Source: Ulvibacter algarum (lineage in GTDB: Bacteria; Bacteroidota; Bacteroidia; Flavobacteriales; Flavobacteriaceae). Taken from it: DNA of 64,000 bases. Location: positions 1 to 64,000 of the forward strand of contig CANLBJ010000010.1 of assembly GCA_947488905.1 (NCBI GenBank), in the 5' to 3' direction. Below, piece after piece: positions 18,067-28,846 of the stretch (the first letter of the stretch is position 1; every line of letters starts with the position of its first letter). The notes beneath the pieces were generated by a model that was given only the letters and a program-made list of their open reading frames with translations, was not told where the DNA came from and did no database searches. A program made the position numbers and the translations under genes.

Positions 18067-19365
18067 TTATTTTAATAAAAAAGTCTTTAACTCTCTGTAT
18101 TCAAAAATACGCTCTGCTTTCTTTTCTTTCTTTATTATTTGTAAAATACTTTCTGGAATTATCACGGCCTCTTTAATCGCTTCTGGTAATACATCTAAAA
18201 ATTTTACAGGGTGAGCGGTTTCTAAAAACACACCCACAATATCTTTTTTAGTTGAAAGGTATTTTACTAAAGCCGCATAGCCTATTGCTCCATGAGGATC
18301 AGAAATATAGTCGTACTCATTAAACAAAGCTAACATTGACGCTCTTGTTTCATTATCTGTAAAACTATAACCAGTAAGGTTTAATCGTAATTTTGCAATA
18401 TCCCGATTATATATTTCTTGTATGCGAATAAAATTACTAGGATCACCTACATCCATTGCATTACTAATGGTTGCTACACTTGGCTTTGCCACATAATCTC
18501 CCGCTTCTAAATAATGAGGGACGGTGTTGTTTGCGTTGGTCCCTGTTACAAAATGTTTTACCGGCAGTCCCATTTTCTGCGCCATCATCCCTGCGCAGAT
18601 ATTTCCGTAGTTACCACTTGGGACACTAAACACTATGTCTTTGTTAATGTGCTTTAAGGTTTTATATGTAAAAAAATAGTAAAACATTTGTGGCAGCCAC
18701 CTCGCAACGTTTATAGAATTTGCAGACGTTAAATTACGCTTACCTTTAAAATCACCGTCTAAAAAAGCTTGTTTTACCATTGCTTGACAATCATCAAAGG
18801 TACCCTCCACTTCTATGGCTGTAATATTTTTACCCATTGTTGTCAATTGCTTTTCTTGTATATCACTCACCTTACCACTAGGATACAAAATAACCACCTC
18901 AACACCTGGCACATTATAAAAACCGCTAGCAACAGCACCTCCCGTATCTCCAGAAGTTGCCACTAAAACAGTTACTCCTTCTTGTTGAGCATCTTGATTA
19001 TTAAAATACCCAAGACAACGTGCCATAAAACGAGCCCCCACATCTTTAAATGCTAAAGTTGGGCCGTGATACAACTCTAATGCAAACACATCCTTTTTTA
19101 CCTCAACTAATGGAAAATCAAAATTAAGCACATCTGCTAAAATCTCTTTTAAATCTTGTTCAGGAATATCATTGCCTACATAGCTTTCAATGACTTTAAA
19201 AGCAATCTCTACATTACTCATTTCTGAAATAGCATCAAAAAAAGTATTGTCAAGTTTTAAAATTTCAGAAGGAAAATAAAGCCCTTTATCTGGTGCTAAT
19301 CCTTTTATTACGGCTTCTTTAAAACTTACGTTTGGAGCCTGCTTATTTAAACTGTAATACTGCAT
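18067..19365 (-). CDS. thrC: Threonine synthase
   Basis: A PLP enzyme converting O-phosphohomoserine to L-threonine, the last step of the pathway. The N terminus QYYSLNKQAPNVSFKEAV and the segment LAFKDVGARFMARCLG, which holds the PLP-binding lysine, are characteristic. VATSGDTGGAVASG and VPSGNYGNICAG are the phosphate- and PLP-binding loops. I chose the ATG at 19365 (432 residues), 4 bp after the thrB stop. An in-frame ATG at 19386 adds seven unusual residues and would overlap thrB. Confidence 0.95.
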   Translation of the reverse strand: MQYYSLNKQAPNVSFKEAVIKGLAPDKGLYFPSEILKLDNTFFDAISEMSNVEIAFKVIESYVGNDIPEQDLKEILADVLNFDFPLVEVKKDVFALELYHGPTLAFKDVGARFMARCLGYFNNQDAQQEGVTVLVATSGDTGGAVASGFYNVPGVEVVILYPSGKVSDIQEKQLTTMGKNITAIEVEGTFDDCQAMVKQAFLDGDFKGKRNLTSANSINVARWLPQMFYYFFTYKTLKHINKDIVFSVPSGNYGNICAGMMAQKMGLPVKHFVTGTNANNTVPHYLEAGDYVAKPSVATISNAMDVGDPSNFIRIQEIYNRDIAKLRLNLTGYSFTDNETRASMLALFNEYDYISDPHGAIGYAALVKYLSTKKDIVGVFLETAHPVKFLDVLPEAIKEAVIIPESILQIIKKEKKAERIFEYRELKTFLLK

Positions 19366-19369
19366 ATTG

Positions 19370-20290
19370 TTAGATTTTGCGAACACCTTGGGTTCCTATT
19401 TTTGACACATAAGTTGTAAACTCAATGCCTTTATTTGTATATGTTTTTTTAAATGATTCTGCCACACTTTTTGCTTGCGCCTCACCTTTAGACAGTGCAA
19501 AAATAGAAGGTCCAGAACCAGAAATACCTACCGCTAATGCGCCATCTGCAAGAGCAGCTTTCTTAACAGCATCAAAATGAGGAATCATCTTTTTACGTAC
19601 CGGCTCTATAATATGATCAACTACAGAACGCCCTATCAAATTATAATCTGAAGTATGCAAACCGCTAATTAGCCCGCCCACATTAGACCATTGTGCCACC
19701 GCCATTTTTAATGGAATATCTTTAGGTAATATGGCACGACCTTCTTCTGTTCTCAATTCTATTTGAGGATGTAAAACAGAAACATATAATTCTGTTGGTG
19801 TTGGTATAGAAACAATATCTAATGGCTCATAATTACAAATCAGCACAAAGCCACCAAAAATGACTCCCGCTACATTGTCTGCAATCTGCGAACCACAAGC
19901 AACTTCTTCACCGAGCATCGCAAATTTTGTGAGTTGCGTTTTATTATATGGTCTACCCAACAACTCATTGATAGCATAAGCTGCTCCAGCACTGCTGGCT
20001 GCACTACTGCCTAAACCACTACCCGGTTTGTAGTTTTTTATAATCTCAATCTCTACACCAAACGTTGCATTGCTATCTTTTAACATTGCATCTGCTACAA
20101 AACTTGCTGCGTTTTTTTGTGTTTCAAAAGGTAACTTTGCGCCTTCTATTTTAGAAATAGAAACCTTACCGCTATCATTTTTAGTGAAGAGCATATCATC
20201 GCCCAAATCTTCTAGTGCAAAAGCCATCGCATCAAAACCGCAAGACACATTAGCCACTGTGGCTGGCGCAAATATTTTTATCTTATTCAT
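19370..20290 (-). CDS. thrB: Homoserine kinase
   Basis: A GHMP-family kinase phosphorylating homoserine with ATP to feed threonine synthase. The 306-residue protein shows the GHMP ATP loop PGSGLGSSAASSAGAAYA and the C-terminal GISGSGPSIFAL motif. Its start codon overlaps the thrA stop (TAATG at 20288-20292), implying translational coupling, and thrC follows immediately. Both proteins share the operon governed by the upstream threonine attenuator. Confidence 0.95.
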   Translation of the reverse strand: MNKIKIFAPATVANVSCGFDAMAFALEDLGDDMLFTKNDSGKVSISKIEGAKLPFETQKNAASFVADAMLKDSNATFGVEIEIIKNYKPGSGLGSSAASSAGAAYAINELLGRPYNKTQLTKFAMLGEEVACGSQIADNVAGVIFGGFVLICNYEPLDIVSIPTPTELYVSVLHPQIELRTEEGRAILPKDIPLKMAVAQWSNVGGLISGLHTSDYNLIGRSVVDHIIEPVRKKMIPHFDAVKKAALADGALAVGISGSGPSIFALSKGEAQAKSVAESFKKTYTNKGIEFTTYVSKIGTQGVRKI

Positions 20291-22728
20291 TATTGATTTT
20301 TTAAACTAATAATATCTCCAAACAACCCTGATGCCGTCACATCTGCTCCCGCACCTGCGCCTTTAATAATTAAAGGCTGATCTACGTAGCGATTTGTGTA
20401 AAATAACACAATATTATCTTTTCCTTCCAGATTATAAAATGGATGATCTGCAGGTATTTCTTGTAAACCTACACTTGCTTTTCCATCCTTAAATGAAGCT
20501 ACATATTTTAATCTACTGTTATTTTCTGATGCCTTTTTATAGAGTGCTTCATAATGTGATGCATCTGTTTTTAGAGTTTCTAAAAAATCTGGTACCGAAT
20601 CTGCTTTATTACCAGAAACAGACAAAAATGTGTTATTAACTATAGCATCCATTTCTATCTCATAACCGCTTTCTCTTGCAAGAATCACAATCTTTCTTGC
20701 AACATCTACTCCACTTAAATCTATGCGAGGGTCTGGCTCTGTGTACCCTTCTTCTTGAGCCTGTAATACCACATCATAAAATGAGTGCTTGCTATCAAAA
20801 TTATTAAATACAAAGTTTAAACTCCCAGAAAGGACAGCTTGTATTTCGTTGACTTTATCACCAGAGTTGATAAGATTATTTAATGTATTTATTACCGGTA
20901 GTCCTGCACCCACATTTGTTTCAAATAAAAATGGCGCGTGGTATTTTTTAGACAAATCTTTCAATTCCTTATAATTTCCGAAGTTATCTGAACAGGCAAT
21001 TTTATTACACGCCACAACCGCGATACTCTCTTTTAAATAACGGCCATAGCTATTTGCCACACTTGCATTTGCAGTGATATCTACAAAAACACTGTTAGGC
21101 AAATTGAGTTGACATATGCTATTAAACCAAGCATCATCTTTATTTGATTCTCCATTTTCTATTTGTTCTTGCCAGTTATTAAGATTAATACCCGCTGTAT
21201 TAAACACCATTTTACGAGAATTACTTAAGCCCACCACGTGTATCTGCAACATCAAATGATCTATTAGATATTTCTGCTGTTGTGCAATCTGTGCCAACAA
21301 TCTAGCCCCCACATTACCTACACCCACAACAAAAAGATGAATGGTTTTAATCTGCTTTTCAAAAAACCTATAATGCAATACGCTAAGCGCTTTATCAACA
21401 TCTTTTTGTGCGATTACTGCAGAAATATTACGCTCTGAGGCACCTTGTGCAATGGCACGAATATTTACATTATTATTACCCAAAGCGCTAAACATATCGC
21501 CACTAATACCTTGATGATTTTTCATGCCATCACCAATAACTGCAATTACAGAAAGATTTTCTTCTATAATTGTGGGCTGCAATTCTGCACTAGAAATTTC
21601 ATATTTAAACATTTTATCTATTGCAGCTGCAGCCTGTTTGCTATCTGCAGCATCTACGGCAACACAAATAGAATGCTCAGAAGAGGCTTGTGTTATTAAT
21701 ACAATATTGACCTGTTTTGAAGCTAATGCCTCAAAAAGTCTTTTTGAAATCCCTGGAATTCCCACCATTCCGTTGCCTTCTATGGTTAGCAATGCAATAT
21801 CGCCTAGATGAGTAATTCCCTTTACAGGGTTTTGATTAGCAACGCTATTATTTGAAATTTTTGTTCCAGGATCTGCCGGACTAAAAGTGTTTTTAATTAT
21901 AATAGGAATACCCTTTTGCATCACAGGTCTTATTGTGGGTGGGTACAACACTTTTGCCCCAAAATGAGACAACTCCATAGCTTCGTGATAAGAAATTTCT
22001 GGAATCGCAAATGCCTGAGGCACCAACCTTGGGTTTGCTGTAAACATACCGCTTACGTCTGTCCATATTTCTAGCGCCTCTGCCTCAAGTGCTGCCGCAA
22101 TAATTGCAGCTGTATAATCTGACCCTCCTCTACCCAAAGTAGTCGTATCTCCCGCCATTGTGCTCGCTATAAAACCAGGCATAATGGTTAATTGTGCTTT
22201 TTCACTTCGGAAATATTCTTGAATCAAGCTATTTGATGTAGGTTGTAAAACTTCTGCTTGCGTAAAGTGATTGTCTGTTTTTAGCAACTCACGACTATCT
22301 TTAAATGTTACAGAAATATTCTGGTTGTTTGATATTTCAGAAATAATAAAAGCAGAAAGTAGCTCTCCATAACTCAAAACCTTATCTCTAGTTTTACCCG
22401 AAAACTCATTGATTAAATAAACACCTTGCAAGATATTTTTTAGCTCATCTAATAATCTATTGATATAATCTATTGAAGTTGAATCAAGATTTAAATCACT
22501 TGCTGTTATCATGTGACGCTTCCCTATTTTTTTCCAGGTTTTAATATAGGTCTCTTCTTTTCTATTAGCTTGCTCGCCCGCTTTTTGCAATAAATCTGTC
22601 ACTCCTCCTAATGCAGAAACCACAACAATTATCTTGTTATTTATTGACGTATTTAAGGCAATACCCCAAACTTTTTTAATACTCTCTGCTGTTGCAACAG
22701 AGCTCCCTCCAAATTTTAAAACCTTCAT
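20290..22728 (-). CDS. thrA: Bifunctional aspartate kinase / homoserine dehydrogenase
   Basis: Catalyses the first and third steps from aspartate to threonine. The 812 residues start with the aspartokinase motif MKVLKFGGSSVA and include TLGRGGSDYTAAIIAAAL. Central ACT regulatory domains follow (VIAVIGDGMKNHQGISG and neighbours), which usually give feedback by threonine. The homoserine dehydrogenase half has the nucleotide-binding VVGVGNVGARLLAQ, the ETNVGAGLPVINTLNNL segment, and GYTEPDPRIDLSGVDVARK. The ATG at 22728 follows the attenuator terminator by about 17 nt. A second, stand-alone homoserine dehydrogenase lies at 22980-24119. Confidence 0.97.
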   Translation of the reverse strand: MKVLKFGGSSVATAESIKKVWGIALNTSINNKIIVVVSALGGVTDLLQKAGEQANRKEETYIKTWKKIGKRHMITASDLNLDSTSIDYINRLLDELKNILQGVYLINEFSGKTRDKVLSYGELLSAFIISEISNNQNISVTFKDSRELLKTDNHFTQAEVLQPTSNSLIQEYFRSEKAQLTIMPGFIASTMAGDTTTLGRGGSDYTAAIIAAALEAEALEIWTDVSGMFTANPRLVPQAFAIPEISYHEAMELSHFGAKVLYPPTIRPVMQKGIPIIIKNTFSPADPGTKISNNSVANQNPVKGITHLGDIALLTIEGNGMVGIPGISKRLFEALASKQVNIVLITQASSEHSICVAVDAADSKQAAAAIDKMFKYEISSAELQPTIIEENLSVIAVIGDGMKNHQGISGDMFSALGNNNVNIRAIAQGASERNISAVIAQKDVDKALSVLHYRFFEKQIKTIHLFVVGVGNVGARLLAQIAQQQKYLIDHLMLQIHVVGLSNSRKMVFNTAGINLNNWQEQIENGESNKDDAWFNSICQLNLPNSVFVDITANASVANSYGRYLKESIAVVACNKIACSDNFGNYKELKDLSKKYHAPFLFETNVGAGLPVINTLNNLINSGDKVNEIQAVLSGSLNFVFNNFDSKHSFYDVVLQAQEEGYTEPDPRIDLSGVDVARKIVILARESGYEIEMDAIVNNTFLSVSGNKADSVPDFLETLKTDASHYEALYKKASENNSRLKYVASFKDGKASVGLQEIPADHPFYNLEGKDNIVLFYTNRYVDQPLIIKGAGAGADVTASGLFGDIISLKNQ

Positions 22729-22745
22729 ATATTTAATTTTTGCGC

Positions 22746-22775
22746 AAAAAAAAACCTTTCTAAAAAAGAAAGGTT
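22746..22775 (-). terminator. Attenuator terminator in the thr leader
   Basis: On the minus strand AACCTTTC (22768-22775) pairs with GAAAGGTT (22753-22760) and runs into a tract of nine T, just upstream of thrA. The upstream strand can instead pair with GAGGGGTT (22798-22805), an antiterminator, which in turn competes with pairing to the threonine codons of the leader peptide. Confidence 0.85.
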
Positions 22776-22806
22776 ACATATCTAAAAGACAACAAACAAC
22801 CCCTCC

Positions 22807-22854
22807 CTAAATAGGAACTGTGGTATTTGTTGATGTTGTAAAGTTGTTTTGCAT
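22807..22854 (-). CDS. thrL: Threonine-rich leader peptide of the thr operon
   Basis: A 15-codon reading frame starting with ATG at 22854 and ending with TAG encodes MQNNFTTSTNTTVPI, five threonines in fifteen residues clustered at positions 6-12. It sits between the presumed promoter and a terminator hairpin upstream of thrA, the layout of the enterobacterial thr leader. Ribosome stalling at the Thr codons when threonyl-tRNA is scarce would free segment 22798-22805 to block the terminator. The peptide has no role beyond its translation. The gene symbol is by analogy. Confidence 0.75.
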   Translation of the reverse strand: MQNNFTTSTNTTVPI

Positions 22855-22979
22855 TGTGATGTAAATATATAAAAGTATTTGGTTTTTGCTAATAATCCCT
22901 TCGCAAATTCTTGAGACCAACTTTAAATACAAATTCAAAAAAAGGCACCCGTCTAAAAAAAAATGATGGTAATGATATT

Positions 22980-24119
22980 TTATCTTATCTGCTCACTCAA
23001 CCTCAATATATCTCCAAAAACACCTCTCGCGGTAACCTCTGCACCTGCACCAGCACCTTGAATCACAATAGGGTTTTTAACATAATTATCTGTGTATACC
23101 TCAAATATAGTATCACTCCCTTTTAACTGACCAATGGTAGAATCTTTAGAAACCTCTACCAACCTTACGGCTAATTTTGCACCATTGTTTTTAGATAAAT
23201 CACCAGACAACTCTGCCACATACCTAAGCACATTATCTTTGCGGCAATTTTTTTTCTTAATTTGATAAGGAACATCAAGTTGATTTATAGACGTTAAAAA
23301 ATCTTCTTTTGAGCTTAATCTTAAACTTTTTGGCACTAGATTTTCAACTTTCACATCTTCTAGTTCGTTATGTAAATCTAATTCTCTTGCCAGAATTAAT
23401 AATTTTCTTGCTACATCGTTTCCATTTAAATCTTCTCTTGGGTCTGGCTCTGTGTATCCTTTTCTTATGGCCCTGCTTAGCACTTCACTAAAAGGTAAAT
23501 TGCCGTTACTGTACGTATTAAATATATAGCTTAGTGAACCAGAGAAAACACCTTTAATTTTTGTGATATTCTCACCACTTGCATGTAGCAGAGCAATAGT
23601 ATCTATTAAAGGTAAACCTGCCCCAACATTAGTCTCATATAAGTATTTTTTATTATTTGCCTTGAGGGTAGCTCTCAAGTTTTTATAGAAATCTAGAGAT
23701 TGTGTGTTCCCTTTTTTGTTTGAAGACACTAAATGAAACCCTGCTTCTACTAGCTTATTATATGCATAAACAACGGCATCATCTGCTGTATTATCTATTG
23801 CTATAAGGTTATCAAAGTCATGGTCTTTTACATAATCTAAAATTGACTGTACCGAGTCTTTAGTTGATACAGCCTTTTTACTTGACTGCCAGTTTTCATC
23901 TACACCTTCTGGAGCTAAAAGTACTTTTGTTGTATTTGTGACAGCAATAATTTTCACTATTAAATCTCTACGGTGTAAAAGTGATTCTTGCTTCTTTAAT
24001 ATTTGTGTGATTAAAGCCCCACCAACTAAACCGTGACCAAAAATGACCAAGTTAATCTCAGTTTTTTTTAATGAATCTAAATTTATTTTTTTTTGTTTAA
24101 TTTCTATACTTGCACTCAT
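22980..24119 (-). CDS. Stand-alone homoserine dehydrogenase, methionine branch
   Basis: Reduces aspartate semialdehyde to homoserine. About 379 residues hold the dinucleotide-binding segment LVIFGHGLVGGALITQ, the ETNVGAGLPLIDTIALL segment and GYTEPDPREDLNGNDVARK, closely paralleling the C-terminal half of ThrA but without its kinase and ACT domains. The ATG at 24119 overlaps the metX TGA (ATGA), implying coupling, so I prefer it to the ATG at 24125. It is last in the metY-osmC-metX operon behind a SAM-I riboswitch, so it probably feeds methionine synthesis and escapes threonine control. Confidence 0.92.
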   Translation of the reverse strand: MSASIEIKQKKINLDSLKKTEINLVIFGHGLVGGALITQILKKQESLLHRRDLIVKIIAVTNTTKVLLAPEGVDENWQSSKKAVSTKDSVQSILDYVKDHDFDNLIAIDNTADDAVVYAYNKLVEAGFHLVSSNKKGNTQSLDFYKNLRATLKANNKKYLYETNVGAGLPLIDTIALLHASGENITKIKGVFSGSLSYIFNTYSNGNLPFSEVLSRAIRKGYTEPDPREDLNGNDVARKLLILARELDLHNELEDVKVENLVPKSLRLSSKEDFLTSINQLDVPYQIKKKNCRKDNVLRYVAELSGDLSKNNGAKLAVRLVEVSKDSTIGQLKGSDTIFEVYTDNYVKNPIVIQGAGAGAEVTARGVFGDILRLSEQIR

Positions 24120-26921: not shown

Positions 26922-27047
26922 TTTTCTAATTTTTAATTTGAGTTAATAAATAATTAAGTCAAAAGTCAAAATGCGCCTGTTAGCGTACTTCAATAGAAAA
27001 ATGTTATAAGAATAGACTACAACACCTTGTACAGGTATTGGGTTGTC

Positions 27048-27172
27048 GTTATCTATCGCAGATTTTTATAAAAATCATTGTAGAATGTAGCACCTTCTTG
27101 TATCCTATCGCTAGGGAGTACAAGGGTTGCTAAGGTATCAAAGGGTCTAATCCCTCCACCTTTCTTGATAAC
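27048..27172 (-). ncRNA. SAM-I (S-box) riboswitch upstream of metY
   Basis: The minus strand holds the S-box core AAAGGTGGAGGGATTAGACC followed by ACCTTAGCAACC and GAAGGTGCTACATTC. P1 is closed by GTTATC (27167-27172) and GATAAC (27048-27053). This binds S-adenosylmethionine. The 5' P1 region (27168-27176) could alternatively pair over 9 bp with 26999-27007, a possible switch. No strong T-tract terminator follows, so control may be translational. Confidence 0.93.
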
Positions 27173-27418
27173 ATTTCAATAAAGCTTTGAACTTTGTGAA
27201 TGCAAATATTGTGAAAAATAAACTACACTTCCTAATTAAAAAGAATATTTTTCTGTTAAATATATTTTTAAACCTCAATTTAGATGTATTTTCTTTTAAA
27301 TTATGAATGTGTAGTTTTTACTTCGGAAATATTCAACTTTTAATAACTCTTATTCTTTTATCATATTTCCGAAGACTTAATTCTATGTTAACTCTTTTTA
27401 GAATGAAAAGATTCACAC

Positions 27419-27426: not shown

Positions 27427-27436
27427 CGGCTTAATT

Positions 27437-27509
27437 GAGAGGATAGATTTGACTGATTGCGACCTCTTCTGATAGTTTTAGAACATTTCAGAAAAAATGC
27501 TAAAAAGAA
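27437..27509 (+). ncRNA. SAM-II-type riboswitch upstream of metK
   Basis: P1 pairs GAGAGG (27437-27442) with CCTCTT (27463-27468). The loop carries GATTTG and, after five bases, TTGC; downstream comes GCTAAAAAG (27499-27507). These are the conserved SAM-II blocks in the right order. The linker is longer than in minimal SAM-II RNAs and holds a CTGA/TCAG hairpin. The core segment TAGATTTGAC (27444-27453) is perfectly complementary to GTCAAATCTA (27545-27554). Confidence 0.82.
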
Positions 27510-27589
27510 ATATTACTTTATTGTAATCTTAGCTGACGATTCCCGTCAAATCTACCCAACAACAACACACATATATTTAAACCCATACT

Positions 27590-28846
27590 ATGGCGTATTT
27601 ATTTACTTCAGAAAGTGTTTCTGAAGGACACCCAGATAAAGTAGCAGATCAAATAAGTGATGCTTTAATTGATAATTTTTTAGCCTTTGACCCACAGGCA
27701 AAAGTAGCTTGCGAAACACTTGTAACTACAGGACAAGTGGTACTTGCAGGAGAAGTAAAATCTAATGCGTATTTAGATGTACAAGGCATCGCTCGTGATG
27801 TGATAAATAAAATAGGGTATACAAAAAGTGAATACCAGTTTGACGGTAACTCTTGTGGTGTACTTAGTGCTATACATGAGCAAAGTGATGATATTAATCG
27901 CGGTGTAGATCGTGATAATAAAGAAGAACAAGGTGCTGGTGATCAAGGGATGATGTTTGGTTATGCAACTAGAGAGACAGATAATTATATGCCTCTAGCA
28001 TTAGATTTATCTCACAACTTACTTAAAGAACTTGCGGTTTTACGTAGAGAAAATGATGAGATTACCTATTTACGCCCAGATAGCAAAAGCCAGGTAACTA
28101 TAGAGTATAGTGATGATAACAAGCCTGTGCGTATAGACTCTATAGTAATCTCTACACAACACGATGATTTTGATGCTGATGATAAAAGAATGCTTGACAA
28201 AATAAAAAGCGATCTTATCAACATCTTAATTCCGCGTGTAAAAGCACAACGCAAACCAGAGATACAAGCATTATTTAATGATGACATTACATATCACATT
28301 AACCCAACAGGAAAATTTGTAATAGGTGGACCACACGGTGACACAGGTCTTACAGGACGTAAGATTATTGTAGACACTTATGGTGGTAAAGGAGCACACG
28401 GTGGTGGTGCCTTTTCTGGAAAAGACCCAAGTAAAGTAGACCGTTCTGCAGCATACGCGACTAGACATATTGCTAAAAATATGGTAGCCGCAGGTATTTG
28501 TGATGAGTTACTTGTGCAAGTAAGTTACGCCATAGGTGTAGTAGAACCTATGGGGATTTTTGTAGACACATATGGCACTAGCAAAGTAGACCTTACAGAT
28601 GGAGAGATTGCAAAAAAAGTAAGCTCAATATTTGATATGCGCCCAGCAGCAATTGAAGAACGCCTTAATTTACGCCAGCCTATGTACAGCGAGACTGCAG
28701 CATACGGCCATATGGGTCGTAAAAATGAGAAGGTAACAAAAACTTTTACTATTCCTAATGGAGAACCTAAAACAATGGACGTAGAGCTATTTACTTGGGA
28801 GAAGTTAGATTATGTAGAGAAGGTAAAAGCCGCTTTTAAACCTTAA
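27590..28846 (+). CDS. metK: S-adenosylmethionine synthetase
   Basis: Makes SAM from methionine and ATP. The 418-residue protein begins [20 protein letters not shown] with the ATP-binding His-Pro-Asp near residues 15-17, and has the conserved loops [12 protein letters not shown] and [19 protein letters not shown]. It is divergent from metY, with a 668-bp intergenic region that carries a SAM-I riboswitch for metY and a SAM-II riboswitch for metK. Both arms of the divergon should thus respond to the enzyme's own product. Confidence 0.97.

Follow-up and report, generated by a model that had tools for sequence, protein, structure and literature searches.

A Thr-rich leader and a probable ribosome-mediated attenuator before thrABC in Ulvibacter algarum, with a similar layout in a few other Flavobacteriaceae

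The window analyzed here (the whole stretch of 64,000 nucleotides from contig CANLBJ010000010.1 of Ulvibacter algarum) belongs to a genome of 3.55 Mb in 33 contigs. It contains a threonine biosynthesis operon, thrABC, preceded by a met-type gene cluster (a lone homoserine dehydrogenase gene, whose end is at 22980, a metX-like gene, and others) that ends 125 nt before the thr leader. The genes and known RNA motifs of this neighborhood are as follows.

20290..22728, minus strand: thrA, bifunctional aspartokinase/homoserine dehydrogenase I (NF006959, 1020.6 bits, cut-off 726)
19370..20290, minus strand: thrB, homoserine kinase (above the NCBIfam cut-off)
18067..19386, minus strand: thrC, threonine synthase (above the NCBIfam cut-off)
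27046-27174, minus strand: SAM riboswitch RF00162, before the first gene of the met-type cluster
27433-27513, plus strand: SAM-II riboswitch RF01726, before the gene at 27590-28846, which we take to be metK

The two riboswitches lie back to back about 260 nt apart, and represent two classes with one ligand. Between the met-type cluster and thrA we delineated the following elements.

22807..22854, minus strand: leader peptide frame MQNNFTTSTNTTVPI* (sequence and short-frame census)
22819..22839, minus strand: control region, codons 6-12 with the five Thr codons (stall scan, in which codons 5-12 favor capture of segment 3)
22822..22832, minus strand: segment 1 in its lowest-energy register (codons 8-11), pairing with 22790-22801 (minimum-energy fold of the truncated leader)
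22790..22806, minus strand: segment 2, its first base directly after the leader stop; GAGGGGTT at 22798-22805 pairs with segment 3
22767..22775, minus strand: segment 3, 5' arm of the terminator (pairing, duplex, and terminator scan)
22753..22761, minus strand: segment 4, 3' arm of the terminator (pairing, duplex, and terminator scan)
22746..22752, minus strand: U-run of the intrinsic terminator (sequence and terminator scan)

The leader frame MQNNFTTSTNTTVPI runs on the minus strand from an ATG at 22854 to a TAG stop at 22809-22807 and has 15 codons, including Thr at codons 6, 7, 9, 11, and 12 and a single Ile codon. It is enriched in codons for the amino acid made by the operon behind it, as identified by the NCBIfam models (5 Thr in 15 codons). 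An earlier note on this DNA had described a 15-codon leader with five Thr codons, and re-measurement bears this out. Counting both strands, the whole window has 656 ATG frames with 10-30 codons. Five Thr codons occur in two of these, and just one frame, the thr leader, combines at least five Thr codons with a Thr content of at least 30%. A terminator follows within 90 nt of this leader.

This intrinsic terminator, recognized by its sequence pattern between the leader and the first structural gene, spans 22746-22775, and 17 nt separate its U-run from the start of thrA. Two terminator-like sites were found in 22600-23100 (0.3 on average in shuffled sequences), namely the thr terminator and a hairpin formed by the leader and segment 2 at 22821-22796. 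On the transcribed strand, GAGGGGTT occupies 22805-22798, AACCTTTC 22775-22768, and GAAAGGTT 22760-22753. Two helices proposed in the earlier note stood up to re-measurement: the 3:4 terminator helix between 22768-22775 and 22753-22760, and the 2:3 helix of GAGGGGTT with AACCTTTC, proposed as 8 pairs with two G-U, for which duplex prediction gave 10 pairs at -10.6 kcal/mol (p=0.011, 1000 spacer shuffles). The proposed register of segment 1 fared less well: pairing of 22828-22839 with 22788-22800 can form, but the fold preferred 22822-22832 with 22790-22801. Taken alone, the 1:2 duplex does not exceed shuffled spacers in the window (p=0.29).

In the E. coli thr operon, the attenuator (thrL) consists of a short leader mixing Thr and Ile codons, mutually exclusive pairings, and a terminator before thrA. 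The window has in common with it a short Thr-rich leader, exclusive pairings, and a terminator before the thrA gene of thrABC, and differs in having five Thr codons and one Ile codon rather than a mixture of both.

We modeled the switch by cutting the leader RNA before segment 4 and folding it at 37 C at equilibrium, with the RNA treated as occupied by the ribosome as far as 14 nt beyond the first A-site nucleotide. With the ribosome stalled at Thr codon 9, upstream sequence captured segment 3 with a probability of 0.97; this fell to 0.04 both for a ribosome at the stop codon and for naked RNA. None of 300 dinucleotide shuffles of the spacer matched the lesser of these two drops in capture (0.93). 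When the stall was moved across 16 codons, capture was at least 0.96 at codons 5-12, which include all five Thr codons of the leader, and did not exceed 0.66 at codons 1-4 or 13-16; with footprints of +11, +13, and +16 nt only the edges of this permissive stretch moved. For the complete RNA, equilibrium folding gave the terminator a probability of 0.96 both in naked RNA and with the ribosome at the stop, and of 0.92, 0.82, 0.23, 0.32, and 0.48 for stalls at codons 6, 7, 9, 11, and 12, respectively. Since the terminator often prevails in the complete RNA at equilibrium, the model needs the 2:3 helix to be formed before segment 4.

The region is thus very probably, as judged from its sequence, a ribosome-mediated transcription attenuator that ties thrABC expression to charged threonyl-tRNA. 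In the proposed mechanism, a ribosome would trail RNA polymerase along the 15-codon leader. When charged tRNA-Thr is scarce, it would stall at codons 6-12, covering segment 1 and leaving segment 2 free; segments 2 and 3 would then pair before segment 4 is made, the terminator would come too late, and transcription would read through to thrA. When threonine is plentiful, a ribosome at the stop codon would cover the start of segment 2, so that 3:4 could form and transcription would end. Without a ribosome, 1:2 pairing would lead to the same outcome, termination. We infer in this scheme the translation of the leader, the coupling of ribosome and polymerase, termination at the hairpin, and the response to threonine.

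A competing explanation is that the hairpin terminates the upstream met-type cluster or acts as a constitutive partial terminator, and that the Thr-rich frame before it arose by chance. It gains from the terminator scan of 22600-23100, which gave no terminator-like site between the end of the met-type homoserine dehydrogenase gene and the leader, and from the promoter scan of the window, which assigned no promoter. We nevertheless hold it to be very improbable, because only one of the 656 short frames is so rich in Thr and because none of 300 shuffled spacers suits the switch as well; the leaders of other loci, described below, also speak against chance. Promoter scans were scored against a Bacteroidota consensus of 10 positions, and in the window they gave nothing above chance: the best site, 75 nt before the leader, scores 8/10 and is equaled in 699 of 2000 random 130-mers. 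In five relatives (L022, L173, L174, L179, and L029), the pattern TTTG-N19/20-AACATTTG is found 7-9 nt before the leader ATG and agrees with 9/10 of the consensus, a level of at least 9 that 116 of 2000 random window 130-mers attain somewhere. In the window, L175, and L030, no site scores above 8, and the top one is placed elsewhere. Should the promoter-like TTTG-N19/20-AACATTTG pattern be genuine, the leader mRNAs would be almost without a 5' untranslated region. Transcripts could also enter the thr leader from the met-type cluster upstream. The 17 nt between hairpin and thrA probably leave little room for a promoter starting after the hairpin.

Control of the operon by a threonine-binding or tRNA-binding RNA (a riboswitch or T-box), with an incidental short frame, is the reading we find hardest to credit. 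RNA sensors are evidently in use nearby, as the SAM riboswitches beside the met-type genes and metK indicate. However, no Rfam family reaches its gathering score in 22650-22980, and the leader region has only about 110 nt, which the attenuator segments account for. In the gathering-score search of the whole window the thr leader received no family match, and with E values up to 5 the six matches listed for 22650-22980 were all far below gathering scores. The enterobacterial thr leader family, presumably the one that Rfam names Thr_leader, was not among the matches in either search. Known RNA families were accordingly rejected as an assignment for the leader, none scoring at the gathering level. 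Nine loci of relatives searched with E values up to 0.5 gave no match either.

To the attenuator reading, the comparison of thrA loci within the family adds further instances of the layout. ThrA was matched somewhere in 293 of 299 family genomes, and upstream sequence was collected for 150 loci among the matches listed, of which 148 were usable (L021 and L120 were left out; L021, read separately, has no leader). A uniform terminator test, requiring a hairpin with a T-run within the last 160 nt before thrA, was positive in 8 of these 148 listed loci, half of them with the window layout and half with a different type of leader, termed class-2 below. A looser test gave 13 of 148 among the matches listed, comprising the four loci of the window type, eight of class-2, and L020, which we regard as a random match within the gene upstream. 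The window layout is shared by seven other thrA loci from three other genera, which makes eight loci and four genera in all. Five of them (L022, L173, L174, L175, and L179) come from the genus of L022, where thrA was obtained from 8 of 9 genomes and the remaining 3 of 8 loci (L176-L178) lack the layout; the L179 thrA is a partial gene. Because L022, L173, and L174 are closely related, the eight loci do not count as independent. Their leader frames and shuffle tests are listed below; duplex p values refer to 1000 spacer shuffles, and the naked-RNA demand is that segment 3 also be free without a ribosome.

L002 (window): MQNNFTTSTNTTVPI, 5 Thr; 2:3 p=0.011; 1:2 p=0.29; naked-RNA demand p=0.003
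L022: MKHIITNTTTTTTGTS, 8 Thr; 2:3 p=0.241; 1:2 p=0.029; naked-RNA demand p=0.093
L173: MKHNITNTTTTTTGTS, 8 Thr; 2:3 p=0.141; 1:2 p=0.063; naked-RNA demand p=0.249
L174: MQNSSINTTTTTTGTS, 7 Thr; 2:3 p=0.152; 1:2 p=0.054; naked-RNA demand p=0.007
L175: MNTTSTITTFTTGSRS, 7 Thr; 2:3 p=0.008; 1:2 p=0.487; naked-RNA demand p=0.668
L179: MRTVSTCTITTTGPKG, 6 Thr; 2:3 p=0.012; 1:2 p=0.637; naked-RNA demand p=0.711
L029: MNITNIISTIITSIP, 3 Thr and 6 Ile; 2:3 p=0.010; 1:2 p=0.03; naked-RNA demand p=0.658
L030: MRQSNITTTIITSIP, 4 Thr and 4 Ile; 2:3 p=0.081; 1:2 p=0.01; naked-RNA demand p=0.030

In silico, 2:3 acts as an antiterminator in all eight loci: it precludes the terminator and becomes available when the ribosome stalls, with a difference in capture between stall and stop that ranges from 0.56 to 0.93 (p 0.003-0.053). 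The strand of segment 2 that enters the helix begins 0-5 nt past the leader stop. With the register set by eye, 2:3 pairs are found in 57 of 64 cells and 3:4 pairs in 61 of 64 despite differing sequences, and several helix positions have changed on both sides. The release of segment 3 by a 1:2 hairpin without translation is less uniform. In the window the naked RNA gives a capture of 0.04, but the 1:2 duplex has p=0.29; the demand that naked RNA free segment 3 is not significant in L022, L173, L175, L179, and L029, and the 1:2-dependent part of the switch amounts to little or nothing in L173, L175, L179, and L029 and is weak in L022. In the complete RNA of L022, L175, L029, and L030, the terminator keeps a probability of at least 0.72 for a stall at every Thr codon.

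A Thr or Thr/Ile frame at the matching place in seven other thrA loci argues against a chance frame in the window. The earlier note had suggested checking relatives for a conserved Thr-rich frame and conserved pairings; these do recur, in eight loci of four genera, but the layout is rare, with 4 of 148 loci among the matches listed (L002, L022, L029, and L030) and none of the 79 loci with upstream sequence among 80 named loci from an alignment query. A contig scan with the window ThrA as the single query confirmed no relative, whereas the nearest ThrA relatives among the named loci are Flavobacteriaceae. In several relatives, thrA is preceded by a gene that, judging from its C-terminus, is presumably ilvA.

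In the 10 other genomes from the genus of the window, one full-length ThrA homolog was found (G005, 35% identity), the remaining matches being partial. No thrC match was obtained in G001, G002, G004, G005, and G009, of which G004 is 77% and G005 59% complete. The genomes G001, G002, and G009, which are 96-100% complete, have neither a thrC match nor a full-length ThrA match. The thr genes look patchy in this genus, and loss or transfer is possible. Two small genomes of the genus have thrC matches with one in-frame TAA (L278 and L280).

Most of the listed thrA loci are preceded by the other type of leader, for which we coined the label class-2: a Thr/Ile leader that runs into an ACCC-GGGT hairpin followed by A(C/T)AT. 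The bare ACCC-GGGT motif is present upstream of thrA in 120 of the 148 loci among the matches listed, and 101 of the 148 have a slightly less strict version of the hairpin, followed by A(C/T)AT at a distance of up to 25 nt. The leader is positioned at about -190 to -60 before thrA (in loci among L031-L168), and the frame running into the hairpin is open across the 16 codons examined in all 101 loci. Thr makes up 33.7% of this frame but 1.5% and 0.9% of the two alternative frames; the ACCC-GGGT motif itself adds one Thr codon per locus, and is the sole Thr of the last eight codons in 2 of the 101. Among the 80 named loci, this second pattern was found in 58 and was absent in 21, with one locus lacking upstream sequence; 9 of the 21 still show such a frame by eye. 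RNAalifold detected no common fold in class-2 leaders beyond the short ACCC-GGGT hairpin, which was invariant in the 37 loci checked pair by pair and hence gave no covariation.

Both types place a Thr-containing leader upstream of thrA, but class-2 has the ACCC-GGGT hairpin and mostly lacks a terminator. By the uniform test, 97 of the 101 class-2 loci among the matches listed were without one, and a class-2 leader in 101 of 148 listed loci with 97 of them terminator-less was the less expected outcome of the survey. Terminator-like sites occur in 4 of these 101 listed loci and in 4 of the 58 named ones. In 7 of these 8, what scores as terminator-like is the ACCC-GGGT hairpin together with a T-rich tail, and this hairpin may have a weak terminator role. 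Runs of at least six T are found downstream in 29 of 78 aligned loci.

The class-2 loci bear on a further alternative for the window, in which leader translation acts mainly on thrA translation or on RNA decay, as class-2 leaders may, rather than on termination. The 97 of 101 listed class-2 loci with a Thr/Ile leader but no terminator lend it some plausibility. We give it very little credence for the window, where, as in the seven look-alikes, a hairpin with a U-run is located near thrA, and where the spacer switches this hairpin in the model. For the family as a whole, it is possible, although we stop short of calling it probable, that Flavobacteriaceae have two designs of Thr leader. Class-2 would respond to threonyl- and isoleucyl-tRNA by way of the ribosome, at a step different from intrinsic termination (Rho, thrA translation, or decay), and the window type would mean that a few lineages either switched to classical attenuation or retained it. 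We rated this two-design reading slightly lower because the ACCC-GGGT hairpin is itself the terminator-like site in 7 of 8 loci. With about 100 natural variants, the class-2 leader, mostly terminator-less, lends itself to a search for another mechanism.

Returning to attenuation in the window genome, we searched it for four gene families (hisG, pheA-type, trpE-type, and ilvD). Three of them have a leader rich in the matching amino acid before a hairpin with a T-run.

L283, hisG: His-rich leader MNNQVHHHHLHTGLQSSRK*
L284, pheA-type gene (prephenate-dehydratase-type, PF00800): Phe-rich leader MNNNATFFNFWYFYFTERSGFAM*
L285, trpE-type gene (anthranilate-synthase-type, PF04715): Trp-rich leader MKTTNNLTWWWNNSRQ*

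That the his, phe, and trp genes of this genome each show the matching amino acid again speaks against a chance frame before thrA. The shuffle test of the switch gave p=0.306 for his, p=0.488 for phe, and p=0.050 for trp, and is uninformative for his and phe because segment 2, as read, lies inside the leader frames. A second, weak match to the trpE-type family was also present (L286). No ilvD match was found in the window genome, whereas a control was matched in 14 of 14 genomes; this is in keeping with the one Ile codon of the window leader. Together with the operon identity, the modeled switch, and the seven relatives, these leaders support, at the level of sequence, the attenuator logic that the earlier note had proposed for thrABC. 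With thr, his, phe, and trp leaders in one genome, there is now comparative evidence, down to single segments, in favor of classical leader-peptide attenuation in Flavobacteriaceae; an E. coli-type control device thus seems to be in use in this bacterium too. Shine-Dalgarno sites are seldom used in Bacteroidota, and the leaders make ribosome-polymerase coupling there testable.

Leader-peptide attenuation in Flavobacteriaceae has already been proposed in print. A 2021 transcriptome study of F. psychrophilum, also of this family, gave strong clues for it at amino-acid operons, with 5' elements at pheA, hisG, and others that are present in other genera; in the parts available to us it has no segment-level analysis, and the word 'threonine' is absent from its main text (PMC9723704). 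A 2020 study of Bacteroides mentioned short frames reminiscent of leader peptides (PMC7366714). PMC1262725 concerns Actinobacteria and PMC4833913 leader-gene distances. Among the literature matches listed, from a search with most subscription journals outside its reach, no title or opening of an abstract names a thr leader in Bacteroidota; a dissection of the thr leader was thus not found in the literature searched, beside the attenuation suggested by the transcriptome study.

The his leader recurs outside the window genome. In 20 of 20 further family genomes, hand-picked among those with a Thr/Ile leader before thrA and read by eye, a frame with a His run and then a hairpin with a T-rich tail precede hisG. 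At 5 of 20 ilvD loci (L289, L290, L292, L294, and L295), inspection by eye showed I/V-rich leaders with terminators upstream of the gene.
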